Assembly: GCF_003670115.1 (NCBI RefSeq)
Contig: NZ_QQTY01000001.1
Span: forward strand, 682,001-746,000
DNA length: 64,000 bases
Reading direction: 5' to 3'
DNA from: Natronorubrum halophilum
GTDB taxonomy: Archaea; Halobacteriota; Halobacteria; Halobacteriales; Natrialbaceae
The notes beneath the pieces were generated by a model. That model searched no databases. It was not told the DNA's origin and saw only the letters and a list, made by a program, of their open reading frames with translations. This document shows positions 4,174 to 39,060 of this stretch, one piece after another (the first letter of the stretch is position 1; each line of letters begins with the position of its first letter). The translations under genes were made by a program, and so were the position numbers.

Positions 4174-4965
4174 ATGACGTTCAGTATCTGCGCCCACGAG
4201 TCCTATACCAACGGGGACGGCGACGAGCACGATCGATTCGGCGTCGCCGTCACGACCCGCCTTCCGGGCGTCGGCACGCTCTGTCCGTTCGTCAGCGAGA
4301 ACTGCGCCGTCGCAACCCAGAGTCTGGTCAACGTCGAGTTGGGACGCCGGGGGATCGCATACGTCGACGACAGGCTGGCCATCGAAGATGCCCTCGAGGC
4401 GCTGCTCAACGCCGACGACGGCGCGCCCCAGCGGCAACTCCACGGCGTCGACCAGAACGGGGCGTTCGCGTTCTCCGGCGAGGGGTGTGGTGACTGGTAC
4501 GGCCACCGCAGGGGCGATCACTACACGGTCGCGGGGAATCTCCTGACCGGCGAACCGGTGGTCGACGCGACCGCAACAGCCTACGAGGCGAACGCCGTCC
4601 ACGAGACGACCGACGACACCGGCGGCAGTCCGCGAGACGGCACCGGTCCCGATCCGCTGGCAAAGCGCCTGATCGATGCCCTCGCTGCGGGCGATCTCGA
4701 GGGCGGCGACAAACGCGACGGGCTGGCCGTCCAGAGCGCGGCCGTCATCGTCGAGACGACCGAAGCGTACGACGTGACGCCGCCGTACAACAACCTTCGG
4801 GTGGACGCGACGGAGACGCCGATTCCCGACCTCCAAGAGACGTACAACCTCGCAGTCGCCGGGTACGAGGACACGCTCGAGCGATACCGGGAAGCGTACG
4901 AGGAGGATTCGCTGGACGAAACCGCAGTGTCAACGGCAACGAACAACGGTTCGCCGTCGAGTTGA
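4174..4965 (+). CDS. DUF1028 (Ntn-hydrolase-like) family protein
   Basis: A 263-residue protein that matches the DUF1028 pattern. It opens with MTFSICAHESYTNG, then FGVAVTTRLPGVGTLCPFV, then ENCAVATQSLVN, and has GEGCGDWYGHRRGDHYTVAGNLL near residue 105. The family has an Ntn-hydrolase-like fold; its substrate is not established. The C-terminal 60 residues (LERYREAYEEDSLDETAVS...) are charged and probably peripheral. It stands alone between two minus-strand genes. Confidence 0.82.
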   Translation: MTFSICAHESYTNGDGDEHDRFGVAVTTRLPGVGTLCPFVSENCAVATQSLVNVELGRRGIAYVDDRLAIEDALEALLNADDGAPQRQLHGVDQNGAFAFSGEGCGDWYGHRRGDHYTVAGNLLTGEPVVDATATAYEANAVHETTDDTGGSPRDGTGPDPLAKRLIDALAAGDLEGGDKRDGLAVQSAAVIVETTEAYDVTPPYNNLRVDATETPIPDLQETYNLAVAGYEDTLERYREAYEEDSLDETAVSTATNNGSPSS

Positions 4966-5100
4966 CGCTCCGAGACGGGGTTCCGGAAACGAGTGGTGTA
5001 CGATCCGCCGTGACGAGTTCTCGGCACGACCCCGGCCGTCTGCGGTTCCGTCGGACCCGACCGAGAACGGTCCGTATGAGTCGTCGCCCGTCAGGCCCGG

Positions 5101-5580
5101 TTATCCGGAGAATTCGTAGAGATCGTCGCCGACGTGGTGCAAGGAGTCGATGACCTTGCCCTCGGTACCGACCATGTCCGCACCCTCCACGCGAGCGCGG
5201 CCGATGGCGAGCACCTTCCCGTGGGACTCCTCGGCGATGACGACCAGGTCGCCGGGGGAGATGTCGTCGGTGGCCTCAGTGATTCCGGGCCGCATCACGT
5301 CCGCGCCGTCGCTGACGAACGAGACCGCGCCGGCGTCGACCGTGACCAGTTGCTGGTGCGGCTCGTAGGTATTTGCGCCTCTAACCGTCAGGAACGGCTC
5401 TTCCTCGAAGTAAGCGACCTGTGGTTCGCCATCGATGAGGACGACCTCCCAGTCAGTGTCCTCGAACTCGACGCGCTCGTAGGCGTCACCGTCGGGTGAG
5501 ACGCCGAGTTGCTCCTCGAGCGTATCCTCTACGTCCGAGACGGCATCGCTACGGAGATGGTGTCGAGACTTGACCTGCAT
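5101..5580 (-). CDS. PUA-domain RNA-binding protein (MCT-1/Tma20-like)
   Basis: A 159-residue protein with an N-terminal pre-PUA domain (MQVKSRHHLRSDAVSDVEDTL) and a C-terminal PUA domain from about residue 75 (LVTVDAGAVSFVSDGADVMRPGI, then ISPGDLVVIAEESHGKVLAIGRA). Eukaryotic relatives bind the small ribosomal subunit in recycling and re-initiation; the archaeal role is probably translation-linked (inference). The start is set at MQVKSRHH because a clear TATA-like box lies 26 bases upstream of it. Confidence 0.88.
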   Translation of the reverse strand: MQVKSRHHLRSDAVSDVEDTLEEQLGVSPDGDAYERVEFEDTDWEVVLIDGEPQVAYFEEEPFLTVRGANTYEPHQQLVTVDAGAVSFVSDGADVMRPGITEATDDISPGDLVVIAEESHGKVLAIGRARVEGADMVGTEGKVIDSLHHVGDDLYEFSG

Positions 5581-6489: not shown

Positions 6490-7914
6490 ATGGCCAGCGA
6501 ATACGTCTTCATCAGCGACCTCCACATGGGCGGCGACGAGGAGCTCACGGCACTCGACTTCGAGTCGGAACTCCTCTCCTTCCTCGCGGATCTCGAGGAG
6601 AACGGCGACGACGTCGAACTGATCATCAACGGCGACGCGTTCGGGCTGTGGGAGTACGCCGAAGTGGAGGGACCGGCAAAGCTCGACCGGGTGATCGAGG
6701 ACCACCCGCGCGTTTTCGAACAGCTCCGTGCGACCGGCGAGGAGATCGATATCACCCTCATTCCGGGCAACCACGACTACGACCTCGCGTGCTATCCATC
6801 GCACATCGATCGGCTCGCGGCGTTCAACGTCACGCTCGAGCCGGAAATTTCGATAACCCGCGAGGTCGGCGACGCGCGAATCTGGATCGAGCACGGCCAG
6901 CAACACGACGCGAACAACCGCATGCCCGACTGGGGGAATCCCGACGCGCTCCCGGTCGGTTACTTCGTCGTCCAGCGGATCGTCGCCGCCGCCGGCCGCT
7001 ACTCCGAACAAGCCAGGGGCGACTGGCTGCGCGACATCCAGTCGGTCGCCCCGATGGAAGAGATCCCGCGCTGGCTCCTCTCGAACTACTTCTACCGGGA
7101 GATGAGTCCGTACTTGCGGGCGATCGTCGTCCCGCTATTGGTGTTTTTCAACATCACGATCATCTACCTCTTCGGCACCATTCTCGAGGCCGCGGGGATC
7201 ATCCCCTCCTGGGTGTTCACCGACAATCCGGTGATTCACGCCCTCGGTATCGCCGACATCGTGCTCGAACTCATCATCACGATCAACCTCGTGATCATCG
7301 CCGTCTTACTCCTGCTCGCGATCCCGTTCTGGCTGTTCAGACGCGACCTCGAGCGGACGCTCGAGCGCTTCGGCGTCGTGCTGTCCGGCGTTCGCGTCGG
7401 GCAGGGCGACGAGCCCTTCCTTCGCGCGGCCAGGGAGACGCTCGAGGCGAACCCCGACATCGCCGTCTTCGTCTACGGACACACCCACCGAGCGTCGCTG
7501 ACGAAGTGGGGCGATCGGGTCGTCGTCAACACCGGAACCTGGCTGAAGAAACTCCAGCACGTCGAGACGTGGTTCTCGCGGCTCCCGGGTATCTACGTCC
7601 CCTCGTTTCGGTTGAACTACTTCCGGATCTTCGCTGAGGGCGACCGGGTCGTCGTCGAGTACGAGGAGATCAAAACCGACGAGTCACGGGATCTCACCCG
7701 CTTTCAGCGACTGGCCGTGCGCCGTCCACCGGGGGAGAACCCGATTCCGGCGCGAACGGTGATCGACCCCGACGGAGCCCTCGAGGTACCCGGTTCGGAG
7801 CCCGAGAGCGATTCCGTCTCCGGACGGGAAACTGCGATCACCGACGGAGACGACGGTGAACGAACGACTGACGGACGTTCGGGCGAGGAGGGCGATCGGC
7901 ACGGGTCGTCGTGA
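6490..7914 (+). CDS. Metallophosphoesterase with two membrane helices inserted in the catalytic domain
   Basis: A 474-residue protein with calcineurin-like phosphoesterase motifs: SDLHMGG (D10, H12), NGD (residues 47-49), GNHD (93-96), EHGQQHD (H135, H139) and GHTH (330-333). Between the fourth motif and GHTH are two strong hydrophobic segments (about 208-233 and 256-283), so the two halves of the metal site are separated by a membrane hairpin. The C-terminal 80 residues are acidic and disordered-looking. Because both ends precede or follow an even number of helices, catalytic residues stay on one membrane face, presumably cytoplasmic. The start MASEYVFISD was chosen because the motif begins at once; an upstream start is not family-like. 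Substrate unknown. Confidence 0.88.
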   Translation: MASEYVFISDLHMGGDEELTALDFESELLSFLADLEENGDDVELIINGDAFGLWEYAEVEGPAKLDRVIEDHPRVFEQLRATGEEIDITLIPGNHDYDLACYPSHIDRLAAFNVTLEPEISITREVGDARIWIEHGQQHDANNRMPDWGNPDALPVGYFVVQRIVAAAGRYSEQARGDWLRDIQSVAPMEEIPRWLLSNYFYREMSPYLRAIVVPLLVFFNITIIYLFGTILEAAGIIPSWVFTDNPVIHALGIADIVLELIITINLVIIAVLLLLAIPFWLFRRDLERTLERFGVVLSGVRVGQGDEPFLRAARETLEANPDIAVFVYGHTHRASLTKWGDRVVVNTGTWLKKLQHVETWFSRLPGIYVPSFRLNYFRIFAEGDRVVVEYEEIKTDESRDLTRFQRLAVRRPPGENPIPARTVIDPDGALEVPGSEPESDSVSGRETAITDGDDGERTTDGRSGEEGDRHGSS

Positions 7915-8049
7915 CGGCTGTGATCGTTGGTCGTTTCACGCTCACAAACTGCCCGAATAGCCGTTTCGGCGACCGATCGAGGTGCCTGACAGTCGGCTCT
8001 GTCAACGAATGAGGTAATTGCTAAGTGTTGGCACGGCGTCGTCACAACT

Positions 8050-23248: not shown

Positions 23249-24145
23249 TTAACGTGAGGACTCGAGCAAGCCGTCTACGCCGGACGCGATCGATTCCCGG
23301 CCGTCCTCGCCGACCTCGACGAGCGGCGGTCGGACGGCGTCCGAGGGGATCACGTCGCGATACTCGAGGGCGGCCTTCGTCGCCGGTGCAAAGCCGTCGT
23401 TCGCGCAGGATTCGAACAGCGGGACGATGGCGTCCTGTACGGTCTCGCCGCGGTCGCCGTCGGCAGTGTCGTACAGTTCGGCGTACCGCTCGGGAGCGGC
23501 GTTCGACAGCGCGTTCACGCCGCCGTCGGCACCCATCCGGAGCGCCGGCAGGAGCAACGCGTCGTACCCCTGCAACGTGAGGAAGTCGTCGGGCGTCCGT
23601 CGCATGACCGACAGGAAGTACTCGAGGTCGCCGCTCGAGTCCTTCAGCCCGATCACGTTGTCGTGGGCGGCGACGGCCGCGAGGGTTTCGGGCTCGAGTC
23701 GCCCGCCGGTACAGACCGGGATGTTGTAGAGGAGGAGGGGCAGCGGCGACCGGTCGGCGACCCGTTCGACGAAGCGCTGGTTGCCTTCGGGGGCGTTGGC
23801 CGCGTGGAAGTACGGCGGCGTGATGACCGCGGCGTCAGCACCGGTTTCGGCCGCCGTTTCCGTGTGGGCAACCGCGTCGTGGACGCTCGTCGCCGCCGCG
23901 CCCGCGAGGACGGGGACGCGACCGCTGACGTGTTCGACCGCGAGTTCGACGACGCGGGCGTGCTCCTCGCGCGAGAGGCTGGCGAACTCGCCCGTCGTTC
24001 CGCAGGGAAAGACCGCGTCGATGCCGCCCTCGAGGAGGTGGCCGAGGAGCGTCGCGAATGCGTCGTCGTCGACGTCACCCGAGTCGGGGTCGAAGGGGGT
24101 GACGAGCGGACAGGTGATTCCCTGGAGTTCCTGGTGGAGCGTCAT
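23249..24145 (-). CDS. DHDPS/N-acetylneuraminate-lyase family aldolase (candidate KDG/KDPG aldolase)
   Basis: A 298-residue class I aldolase of the DapA superfamily. Present are VTPFDPDSGDVDDDAF, CGTTGEFASLS near residue 50, the catalytic tyrosine in LLLYNIPVCTGG (about 139), and the Schiff-base lysine in VIGLKDSSGDLEY (about 167). The family includes dihydrodipicolinate synthase, KDG aldolase and sialic-acid lyase; the dapA substrate arginine is not obvious, so a sugar-acid aldolase is more likely (inference). It lies downstream of an SDR gene and a KDG kinase gene is elsewhere in the window, which fits sugar-acid catabolism. Confidence 0.8.
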   Translation of the reverse strand: MTLHQELQGITCPLVTPFDPDSGDVDDDAFATLLGHLLEGGIDAVFPCGTTGEFASLSREEHARVVELAVEHVSGRVPVLAGAAATSVHDAVAHTETAAETGADAAVITPPYFHAANAPEGNQRFVERVADRSPLPLLLYNIPVCTGGRLEPETLAAVAAHDNVIGLKDSSGDLEYFLSVMRRTPDDFLTLQGYDALLLPALRMGADGGVNALSNAAPERYAELYDTADGDRGETVQDAIVPLFESCANDGFAPATKAALEYRDVIPSDAVRPPLVEVGEDGRESIASGVDGLLESSR

Positions 24146-35895: not shown

Positions 35896-36924
35896 CTACT
35901 CGGTCGCCGCGTCGGCTAACTCGGCGTACGCTCGCCACGACGGATCGACGCTCGGGTGCTCGAGTCGCTCGCCGTCGACGACCACCCCCTCGTCGACCTC
36001 ATCGCCAGCCTCGACGCGGCCGATTTCGGCGACGACGGTGCCCCGCTCCTCGAGTGCGCTGTAAACGTCGTCGACGCCCGCGGGATCGACCGCGATGAGC
36101 AGCGATCCGCTGCTGGTCGCCGCCCAGGGATCCATCTCGAGGGCCACACAGACCTCCCGAACGCCGGGGCGCATCGGAACGGCGTCGCCGTCGATCGAGA
36201 ATCGAGCCTCCGCCCCGTCGGCCATTTCGTTGAGCGCACCCGCGAGTCCGCCTTCGGTCACGTCGTGCATCGCCGTCACGGGACCCGCAGCGGCCGCCGT
36301 GAGGGCGTCGCGAACGCAGTAGACCTCCTCGAGGCGGTCTCGCGCGTCCCCAACAACGCCATCGGGGAGATCCAGTTGGTCGCCGAAGAGGGTACTCAAC
36401 AGGCCGACCGATTCCACGGCGGGACCGGTCGTCAGGAGCAGCCGATCACCCTCGCTGGCACCGTCCGGGCGGACGATCTCGTCGTGGTCGCCGACGCCCA
36501 TCGCGGTCGCCGCGCCGACCCAGGGATGGGACGGATCCGAGTACCGGGCCGTATGGCCGGTCACCACGGCCACGCCGAGGTCGGCACACTCCGCGTGAAT
36601 CGTCTCCCAGACGGTCGCGAACTGCTCGTCGGTCATCGACTCGGGGAGCGTAAAACAGATCGAGAGGTGCGACGGCGCGACGCCGCTGACGGCGACGTCC
36701 GCGAGCACGAGGTCGAGGGCGAACCGACCCGCCCGTTCGAACCCCAGCGCCGGGAGGATCGAGAGAGGGTCGGTCGCGGTCACCAGCGCCTGCCCGCCGA
36801 TATCGATGACGCCGAAATCGACGCCGTGTCGGGGTCCGAGCGCGACGTCGCTGCGATCCGCGCCGAGGTTCGGCGCGATCCGCCGGTCGAAGAACTGCCG
36901 ATCGATTTTGCCGAGGTCGCTCAC
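35896..36924 (-). CDS. AIR-synthase-related protein (PurM/HypE/ThiL fold)
   Basis: A 342-residue protein of the PurM superfamily. The N-terminal half has GVIDIGGQALVTATDPLS, with the metal/ATP-binding aspartate, and LDLVLADVAVSGVAPSHLSI. The C-terminal half has MHDVTEGGLAGALNEMADG and ATSSGSLLIAV, typical of the AIRS_C domain. The family binds ATP and includes HypE, SelD and ThiL; the substrate here cannot be told. The start is GTG at 36924 (VSDLGKIDRQFF); the open frame continues upstream only because it is antisense to the neighbouring DHDPS-family gene. The two genes diverge from a very short interval. Confidence 0.84.
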   Translation of the reverse strand: MSDLGKIDRQFFDRRIAPNLGADRSDVALGPRHGVDFGVIDIGGQALVTATDPLSILPALGFERAGRFALDLVLADVAVSGVAPSHLSICFTLPESMTDEQFATVWETIHAECADLGVAVVTGHTARYSDPSHPWVGAATAMGVGDHDEIVRPDGASEGDRLLLTTGPAVESVGLLSTLFGDQLDLPDGVVGDARDRLEEVYCVRDALTAAAAGPVTAMHDVTEGGLAGALNEMADGAEARFSIDGDAVPMRPGVREVCVALEMDPWAATSSGSLLIAVDPAGVDDVYSALEERGTVVAEIGRVEAGDEVDEGVVVDGERLEHPSVDPSWRAYAELADAATE

Positions 36925-36955
36925 GCTCGAGTAGTCCGATCGGGCGGTCTTAGGC

Positions 36956-37836
36956 GTGCTGATTACCGGAGCGTCGCTCGGTCCGCCAACGACGGTGCCG
37001 GAGCGGTCGATCACGGCCAACTCGCGACGATTACCGACTGGCTCGAGGGGAGCGGTGTCGACTTTCTGGTACCCTGCGGATCGACCGGCGAGGCACCGCT
37101 GTTGACGCCCGACGAGCGTATTCGGGTCGCCGAAACCATCGCGGAGACGACCGATCTTCCCGTCCTCGTCGGAACGGGCCACGAGGGATACGAGCCGACG
37201 CTCGATACTACCGAGCGAGCCGCCGAGGCGGGTGCCGACGCCGCGCTCGTGATCACGCCCTCCTACTACGGATCGGACGACGACGCCCTCGAATCGTACT
37301 ACCGCGACCTGGCCGATGAATCGCCGATCCCGGTGTTTCTGTATAGCGTTCCGAAGTTTACCGGCCGCGCGCTCTCCCCCGAAACCGCCGCCTCGCTCGC
37401 CGCCCACGAGAACGTCGCCGGGATCAAGGACTCGAGCGGGAGCCTCGAGTCCCTCCAGCGACTCGTCGCCCGAACCGAAACCGAAGCGTTCTCGGTGCTG
37501 GTCGGCAGCGGTAGCGTCTACGCAGCGGGGCTCGCGACCGGCGCTGACGGCGGTGTGCTCGCGGTGGCGAACGCTGTGCCCGCGCGTGCGAGCGAGATCT
37601 ATCGCCAACACGAGGGCGGTCGAGCCGACGTGGCCCGCGAACAGAACGCCGCTCTCGTCGAACTCAACCGGGCCGTCACGGCGGAGTACGGTGTTCCCGG
37701 AATCAAAGCCGCCCTCGAACTGCGCGGCCAGCCGGCTGGTAACCCCCGACGACCGCTCCGCTCACTCGACGGCAACGACCGATCGACGCTCGAGTCGATC
37801 CTCGAAGACACCCTCGAGTCGACGATCGCCCGATGA
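36956..37836 (+). pseudogene. DHDPS/NAL-family lyase with no usable start codon
   Basis: From about 36991 the frame encodes a good DapA-superfamily enzyme: PCGSTGEAPLLTPDE, catalytic tyrosine in VFLYSVPKFTG, Schiff-base lysine in VAGIKDSSGSLES, and VGSGSVYAAGLATGADGG. But no ATG, GTG or TTG lies in frame before this core: codons upstream read ADYRSVARSANDG, where the family has a VTPF motif before the acidic turn. The nearest GTG (36956) is in another frame. So the N-terminus is degraded, shifted by an indel, or uses an unusual start. The catalytic core itself is intact. The divergent AIR-synthase-like gene begins at 36924. Confidence 0.6.
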
Positions 37837-37959: not shown

Positions 37960-39060
37960 ATGGCGTACTCGTCCGGTACTGCGACCGAGTCCGACCTCGA
38001 GTTCTCGACATCCGAACTGACGGGTGCGCTAGGTGATTCGGTTACGGTCCTGCCGCTGGTGGTCGCCCTCGCGGCGACGACGAGCGTCTCCCTGCCTCAC
38101 GTCCTCGTCGGCTTCGGCGTGTTCCAGATCGTCTGGGGAGTGTATTACGGGATGCCGCTCTCCGTCGAGCCGATGAAAGCCCTGATCGGGCTGGCGATCG
38201 TCGGCTCCCTCTCCTACCCCGAACTCGCCGCCGCCGGATTGCTCGCGGGCGGCGTCTTACTCGCGGTGGGAAAGCTGGGTCTGGTCGGTCGACTCCAGCG
38301 CGTAGTCGGCGAACCCGTGATTCGAGGCGTCCAGTTCGCCGTCGCCTTACTCCTCCTCGAGGCGGCCGTCGGACTCTCGGTCGGGAACCTCTCCGTCGCC
38401 GCCGCCGGGCTCGCAATCGTGGGCCTCCTGGCGCTCGTCGGCTACCGACACTCGAGCGTACTGCTCGTCCTCGGGGTCGGTGGACTCGTCGCGCTCGCGA
38501 CGACGGGGGTCCCGACACCTCGCCTCCCCGAACTCGCCCTCTTTCCGGCGGGGACGCCGACGACGTCCGGGGCAGCGCTCGAGGGAACCGTCGCCCAACT
38601 CGGGATGACGGTCGGCAACGCCGCGATCGCGACCGCACTGCTCTGTGGTGACCTCTACGACCGGGATATCTCCGCGGATTCGCTCTCGAAAAGCATGGGC
38701 GTGACCTGTCTCGCGGCAGTTCCCCTCGGGGGCGTCCCAATGTGTCACGGCAGCGGCGGGCTGGCAGGGAAGTACGCCTTCGGCGCTCGCACCGGGGGTG
38801 CGAACGTCATTCTCGGGGTCGGCTACCTCGCGCTGGCACTCATCGCAACCGGTGCCCTCCTCGCCGCGTTTCCGCTGGCGCTGCTTGGCGTCTTGCTCGT
38901 GGTCGTCTCGCTCGAGTTGGCTCGAGCCGCGTTCGAACCCGTGACCGATATTCGGTCACTCGGGCTCGTCGTTGGCGTTGGTGTGGTCGGGCTCGCGGTC
39001 AACGTCGGCGTCGCGTTCGTGCTCGGGGCCGTCGCGTGGGCGGTCGCTCGAGGCGAGTGA
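37960..39060 (+). CDS. MOT1-type molybdate/sulfate transporter-like protein
   Basis: A 366-residue polytopic membrane protein with about ten helices. It begins with the family-like ELTGALGDSVTVLPLVVALAA, followed by GVYYGMPLSVEPMKALIG (the MOT1 P-x-Q/E-P-M-K-A motif) and GGVPMCHGSGGLAGKYAFGARTGGAN, the second MOT1 signature. Eukaryotic homologues carry molybdate; bacterial and archaeal ones are usually annotated putative sulfate/molybdate transporters. No molybdopterin genes are adjacent. Confidence 0.9.
   Translation: MAYSSGTATESDLEFSTSELTGALGDSVTVLPLVVALAATTSVSLPHVLVGFGVFQIVWGVYYGMPLSVEPMKALIGLAIVGSLSYPELAAAGLLAGGVLLAVGKLGLVGRLQRVVGEPVIRGVQFAVALLLLEAAVGLSVGNLSVAAAGLAIVGLLALVGYRHSSVLLVLGVGGLVALATTGVPTPRLPELALFPAGTPTTSGAALEGTVAQLGMTVGNAAIATALLCGDLYDRDISADSLSKSMGVTCLAAVPLGGVPMCHGSGGLAGKYAFGARTGGANVILGVGYLALALIATGALLAAFPLALLGVLLVVVSLELARAAFEPVTDIRSLGLVVGVGVVGLAVNVGVAFVLGAVAWAVARGE

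Follow-up and report, generated by a model that had tools for sequence, protein, structure and literature searches.

A DHDPS/NAL-family aldolase gene of Natronorubrum that was very probably beheaded by a deletion beside a divergent AIR-synthase gene

We found that a DHDPS/NAL-family aldolase gene in a Natronorubrum genome lacks its start codon and 5' end while intact orthologues are present at the same locus, and it is very probable that a deletion beheaded the gene and left an ordinary young pseudogene. The gene lies in the window, by which we mean the whole 64,000-nucleotide stretch of DNA that was analysed (G000:C1:682001-746000). The deletion, which we take to be a single event, would have fused the upstream region of a divergent AIR-synthase-related gene to codon 13 of the aldolase, and would have removed the aldolase promoter, the start codon and the first 12 codons, which include a conserved GVPLVTPF stretch that probably forms the first barrel strand. 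It appears to have ended just outside the apparent promoter of the AIR-synthase gene. Since there is no normal start codon near the beginning of the frame and an essential part would be missing, the gene is best read as a young pseudogene that has presumably lost its function. A deletion would account for what otherwise looks like an enzyme without a start, and recognising it would keep annotators from forcing an internal start codon onto the frame and so calling a false gene.

The AIR-synthase-related gene is intact (35896-36924, - strand), starts with GTG at 36924-36922 and scored above the cut-offs of PF02769 and PF00586. Its upstream region (36925-36980, - strand), an ungapped match to the congener G006, contains a block at 36948-36963 which, read on the + strand, consists of CTTAG and TRnTGRT. 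CTTAG was found at an equal distance from the AIR-synthase start in 16 genomes (17 rows, one genome appearing twice) and was followed by TRnTGRT, one base farther on in two rows; the place of this block suggests that it is a promoter element. The next ten bases (36981-36990) fitted neither flank well when identity was read position by position, and they form the deletion junction, after which the truncated aldolase body runs on the + strand from codon 13 to the stop (36991-37836), without a start codon and with no frameshift seen. A gene on the + strand at 37960-39060, which we take to encode a SulP-like transporter, is the downstream synteny anchor, and only about 120 bases separate it from the aldolase stop in the window. 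A long open frame also covers 35956-36990 on the + strand, antisense to the AIR-synthase gene and in frame with the aldolase body; over the AIR-synthase gene it looks like a high-GC shadow frame.

An earlier note on this DNA had stated that the aldolase frame has no in-frame start between the AIR-synthase GTG at 36924 and the first conserved residues at about 36991, that the VTPF-type motif of the family is missing and that the catalytic regions are intact, and all of this held on closer reading. The frame read-out gave no in-frame ATG, GTG or TTG between a GTG at 36826, which sits inside the AIR-synthase gene in antisense, and a TTG at 37102. From 36925 the codons of frame 1 read ARVVRSGGLRRADYRSVARSANDGAGAVDH, and the first 12 codons of the orthologues (MHGTGVPLVTPF) are missing before 36991, from the other frames as well as from this one; 36991 is paired in the alignment with the 13th codon of the G007 gene, which is intact. 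GSTGE, PSYYG, LYSVP and GIKDSSG, which we assume to represent the catalytic regions, are all in frame. That so long a stretch lacks a start is presumably unremarkable by itself, and the telling point is the missing N-terminal motif when compared with many intact relatives, as the relatives that were read have it.

In a family search with the intact G007 protein, 50 of 125 genomes were matched at E 1e-70, and in 48 of these 50 the alignment begins at residue 1 or 2 of that protein, the G000 match beginning at residue 12 and the G130 match at residue 101. Loci of 30 of the matched genomes were covered and, with the window's own set aside, the starts read in the 29 others included 27 ATG and 1 GTG at residue 1. 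An in-frame ATG was present 45-90 nt ahead of the match start in all 25 other matched loci read for it (L002-L026), two of which, L025 and L026, are only distantly related and could be paralogues. Two candidates for a similar condition were rejected: G139, considered as an ATG-less relative, has an ATG six codons upstream, and G130, considered as a second truncation, has its N-terminus together with an assembly gap. The DHDPS gene of G130 is broken at positions 1027-1053 of L117 by Ns and adapter-like sequence, presumably a transposase adapter, which is an assembly fault.

The body passed the gathering cut-off of PF00701 (DHDPS/NAL superfamily) with 178 bits against 22.1, over model positions 14-287 of 289. 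The alignment of the intact G007 orthologue to this model starts at position 6, and the complete N-terminal part of the superfamily fold, with its VTPF-type stretch, is not present in the window's gene. Scores were below the equivalog cut-offs for dapA (TIGR00674; 167 bits against 206) and for KDG/KDPG aldolase (NF040954; 96 bits against 390), as were those of the intact G007 orthologue (190 and 113 bits, respectively). A second DHDPS-family gene in the window (23255-24127) is 37-38% identical and lies just below the dapA cut-off (198 against 206).

The place at which the AIR-synthase flank meets the aldolase body was located by blastn, with 36865-37055 as the query against the nine other genus genomes and G026. 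Positions 36865-36980 gave an 85% ungapped match to G006, in which 36925-36980 is colinear and gap-free (46 of 56 bases identical) and 36967-36980 has 13 of 14 bases identical, and the DHDPS genes of G005, G007 and G009 match only from 36990 or 36991 on. At 36981-36990, identity was 3/10 to G006 on the AIR-synthase side and 3-5/10 to G005, G007 and G009 on the DHDPS side, and at 36991-37000 it was 7-8/10 to the DHDPS genes of the same three genomes. Some matches were less clean: that to the AIR-synthase upstream region of G002 extends to 36985 (80%), that of G008 reaches 37001 (75%, gapped), and the match to the 5' end of the G026 DHDPS gene begins at 36965 (62%, E 0.016). A few matches fell at unrelated places, with E values of 0.002 to 0.8. 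When 36880-37060 was searched against 125 family genomes, with six candidates scored per genome, the left and the right side each found matches, but there was no other instance of AIR-synthase upstream sequence joined to a DHDPS gene as in the window. The match in G084 (72%) covers 36883-36988 and ends before the DHDPS part, and a 25-base match in G141 over 36972-36996 lies 479 kb away from the DHDPS gene of that genome and is probably due to chance. A possible junction microhomology, CGCTCG, was rejected because the next ten bases give it no clean placement.

The earlier note had also offered the option that the true N-terminus lies in another frame and is joined to the body by an indel, and had proposed a DNA-level alignment with orthologues to locate that indel. 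The comparison with congeners showed a deletion junction instead. Neither of the other frames has MHGTGVPLVTPF-type sequence, and the congeners share the interval as upstream sequence of their AIR-synthase genes. When 36941-36991 was compared with the DHDPS 5' ends of ten orthologues, nine gave no convincing alignment, with 51-487 of 500 simple base shuffles scoring at least as high. In favour of a displaced N-terminus, the comparison with the tenth (G016) was equalled by only 5 of 500 shuffles, and an out-of-frame GTG at 36956 reads MLITGASLGPP, which is faintly like MHGTGVPLVTP; this GTG was dropped as a diverged start after alignment of the AIR-synthase upstream regions. We regard an N-terminus in another frame, joined by an indel or frameshift, as almost certainly wrong.

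Computed from coordinates, about 115 nt are missing relative to the G007 layout and about 660 nt, including an intervening GNAT gene (PF00583), relative to the G005 layout. Among 29 oriented loci, the AIR-synthase and DHDPS genes are directly adjacent in 9, with 94-162 nt between their starts, and in 3 a GNAT gene lies in a long gap of 681-763 nt between them; the remaining 17 loci showed no AIR-synthase start, and 6 of these have a GNAT gene. The layout that was cut may have been either one, with or without the GNAT gene: in the joint tree G000 lies near G005, G003 and G006 with weak support (0.688 and 0.448), and in a tree of SulP alone it groups with G001 and G004 (0.498).

A degenerate pattern for the lost 5' end, which allowed no mismatch, had no match in the same genome, and no close copy of the GNAT gene was found there either (the best-scoring match has 33% identity and no match exceeds 46%). 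Both results argue against an assembly misjoin, in which the gene of the strain would be intact and the assembly would have dropped the segment. A misjoin would suit a body that looks functional, but the junction lies within a 1.26-Mb contig of an 8-contig assembly which is 99.99% complete, and the gene is missing or broken in 6 of the 9 other genus genomes; we therefore consider this explanation unlikely.

No sign of decay was seen in the body itself. Among 13 aligned sequences, the window is changed at 2 of the 97 columns that are invariant in the other 12, both times conservatively (V to I and A to V), and the other sequences depart at 0 to 13 such columns. Values of pN/pS to G005, G007 and G009 were 0.26-0.30, compared with 0.13-0.41 for intact pairs, and in five branch comparisons the nonsynonymous and synonymous counts did not differ from those of the sister (p = 0.59, 0.83, 0.11, 0.26 and 0.87). 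Neither relaxed selection nor lesions of the kind that mark a pseudogene were found in the body, which has no frameshift and an ordinary pN/pS. A recent loss would be expected to leave such a body, so either the loss happened recently compared with the split from G005 or the body is still used.

Continued use would mean that translation of the truncated frame begins at a non-standard codon, or at the GTG at 36826 to give a fusion over the antisense strand of the AIR-synthase gene, and we think this very unlikely. The 56 bases ahead of the junction are AIR-synthase upstream region with no DHDPS coding homology, the DHDPS upstream sequence is gone, and the product would be without the VTPF-type stretch. 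Constraint on the body is ordinary and frame 1 stays open as far back as 35956 and further, both of which agree with continued translation, but the resemblance of that frame to a high-GC shadow frame weighs against it. It would likewise be very surprising if the beheaded enzyme were still made by initiation at a codon other than AUG, GUG or UUG, with the AIR-synthase promoter region working in both directions; such initiation, if true, would account for the unrelaxed body. Given the missing start codon, upstream sequence and likely barrel strand, we favour recent loss over continued use, and the loss of the 5' end is probably recent. The suggestion in the earlier note that decay has just begun gains support here, with the 5' end gone, the body intact, and a remnant or no trace of the gene in 6 of the 10 genus genomes.

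The AIR-synthase gene was found in all 10 genus genomes. Of these genomes, 3 have an intact DHDPS gene (G005, G007 and G009, the two genes lying on different contigs in G009), 1 has a 5'-truncated one (G000) and 2 retain decayed remnants with internal loss (G003 and G006). For G001, G002, G004 and G008, tblastn (E 0.01) gave no trace of the gene between the flanking genes, in stretches of 7.8-8.6 kb beside the AIR-synthase gene. The locus is a small loss series of one gene in one genus: intact, beheaded, remnant and gone. Each of the three trees makes G003 the sister of G006, so their losses may be one event, distinct from that in the window. Directly after the DHDPS remnant, L049 (G006) and L052 (G003) carry an ORF starting MHGIILKTLQAFVVDTYGEDAWL, which we take to be heme-NO-binding-like. 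L052 also contains two SulP-like pieces (4583-5263 and 7051-8034), which suggests a duplication or an insertion.

In a literature search, no title or abstract opening pointed to a report on this locus. We take kdgA to belong to the DHDPS family. The same placement is given in PMC8305020, in which a haloarchaeal kdgA candidate is 36% identical to dapA, and the haloarchaeal dapA and kdgA-type proteins described there belong to the same broad family as the gene studied here. The haloarchaeal dapA is encoded in G000 by another gene than the truncated one, namely a separate gene at G000:C2 which reached 335 bits against the cut-off of 206. Among proteins of solved structure, human 4-hydroxy-2-oxoglutarate aldolase (3s5n, 3s5o) is closest in sequence to the intact G007 orthologue, and it is distant from the haloarchaeal enzyme. 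That orthologue, from Natronorubrum bangense (G007 / NZ_CP031305), resembles the window's gene in being divergent from the AIR-synthase gene, in having a SulP-like gene downstream and in its identity of about 78% over the body; it differs in that ATG and MHGTGVPLVTPFDD are present, the two start codons are 135 nt apart and about 2.5 kb lie between the DHDPS gene and the SulP-like gene. The remnants in G006 and G003 likewise represent loss of the gene at the same locus beside the AIR-synthase gene, but these remnants keep parts of the N-terminus and have lost most of the interior, with a GNAT gene still there, and their loss was apparently separate from that in the window and older.
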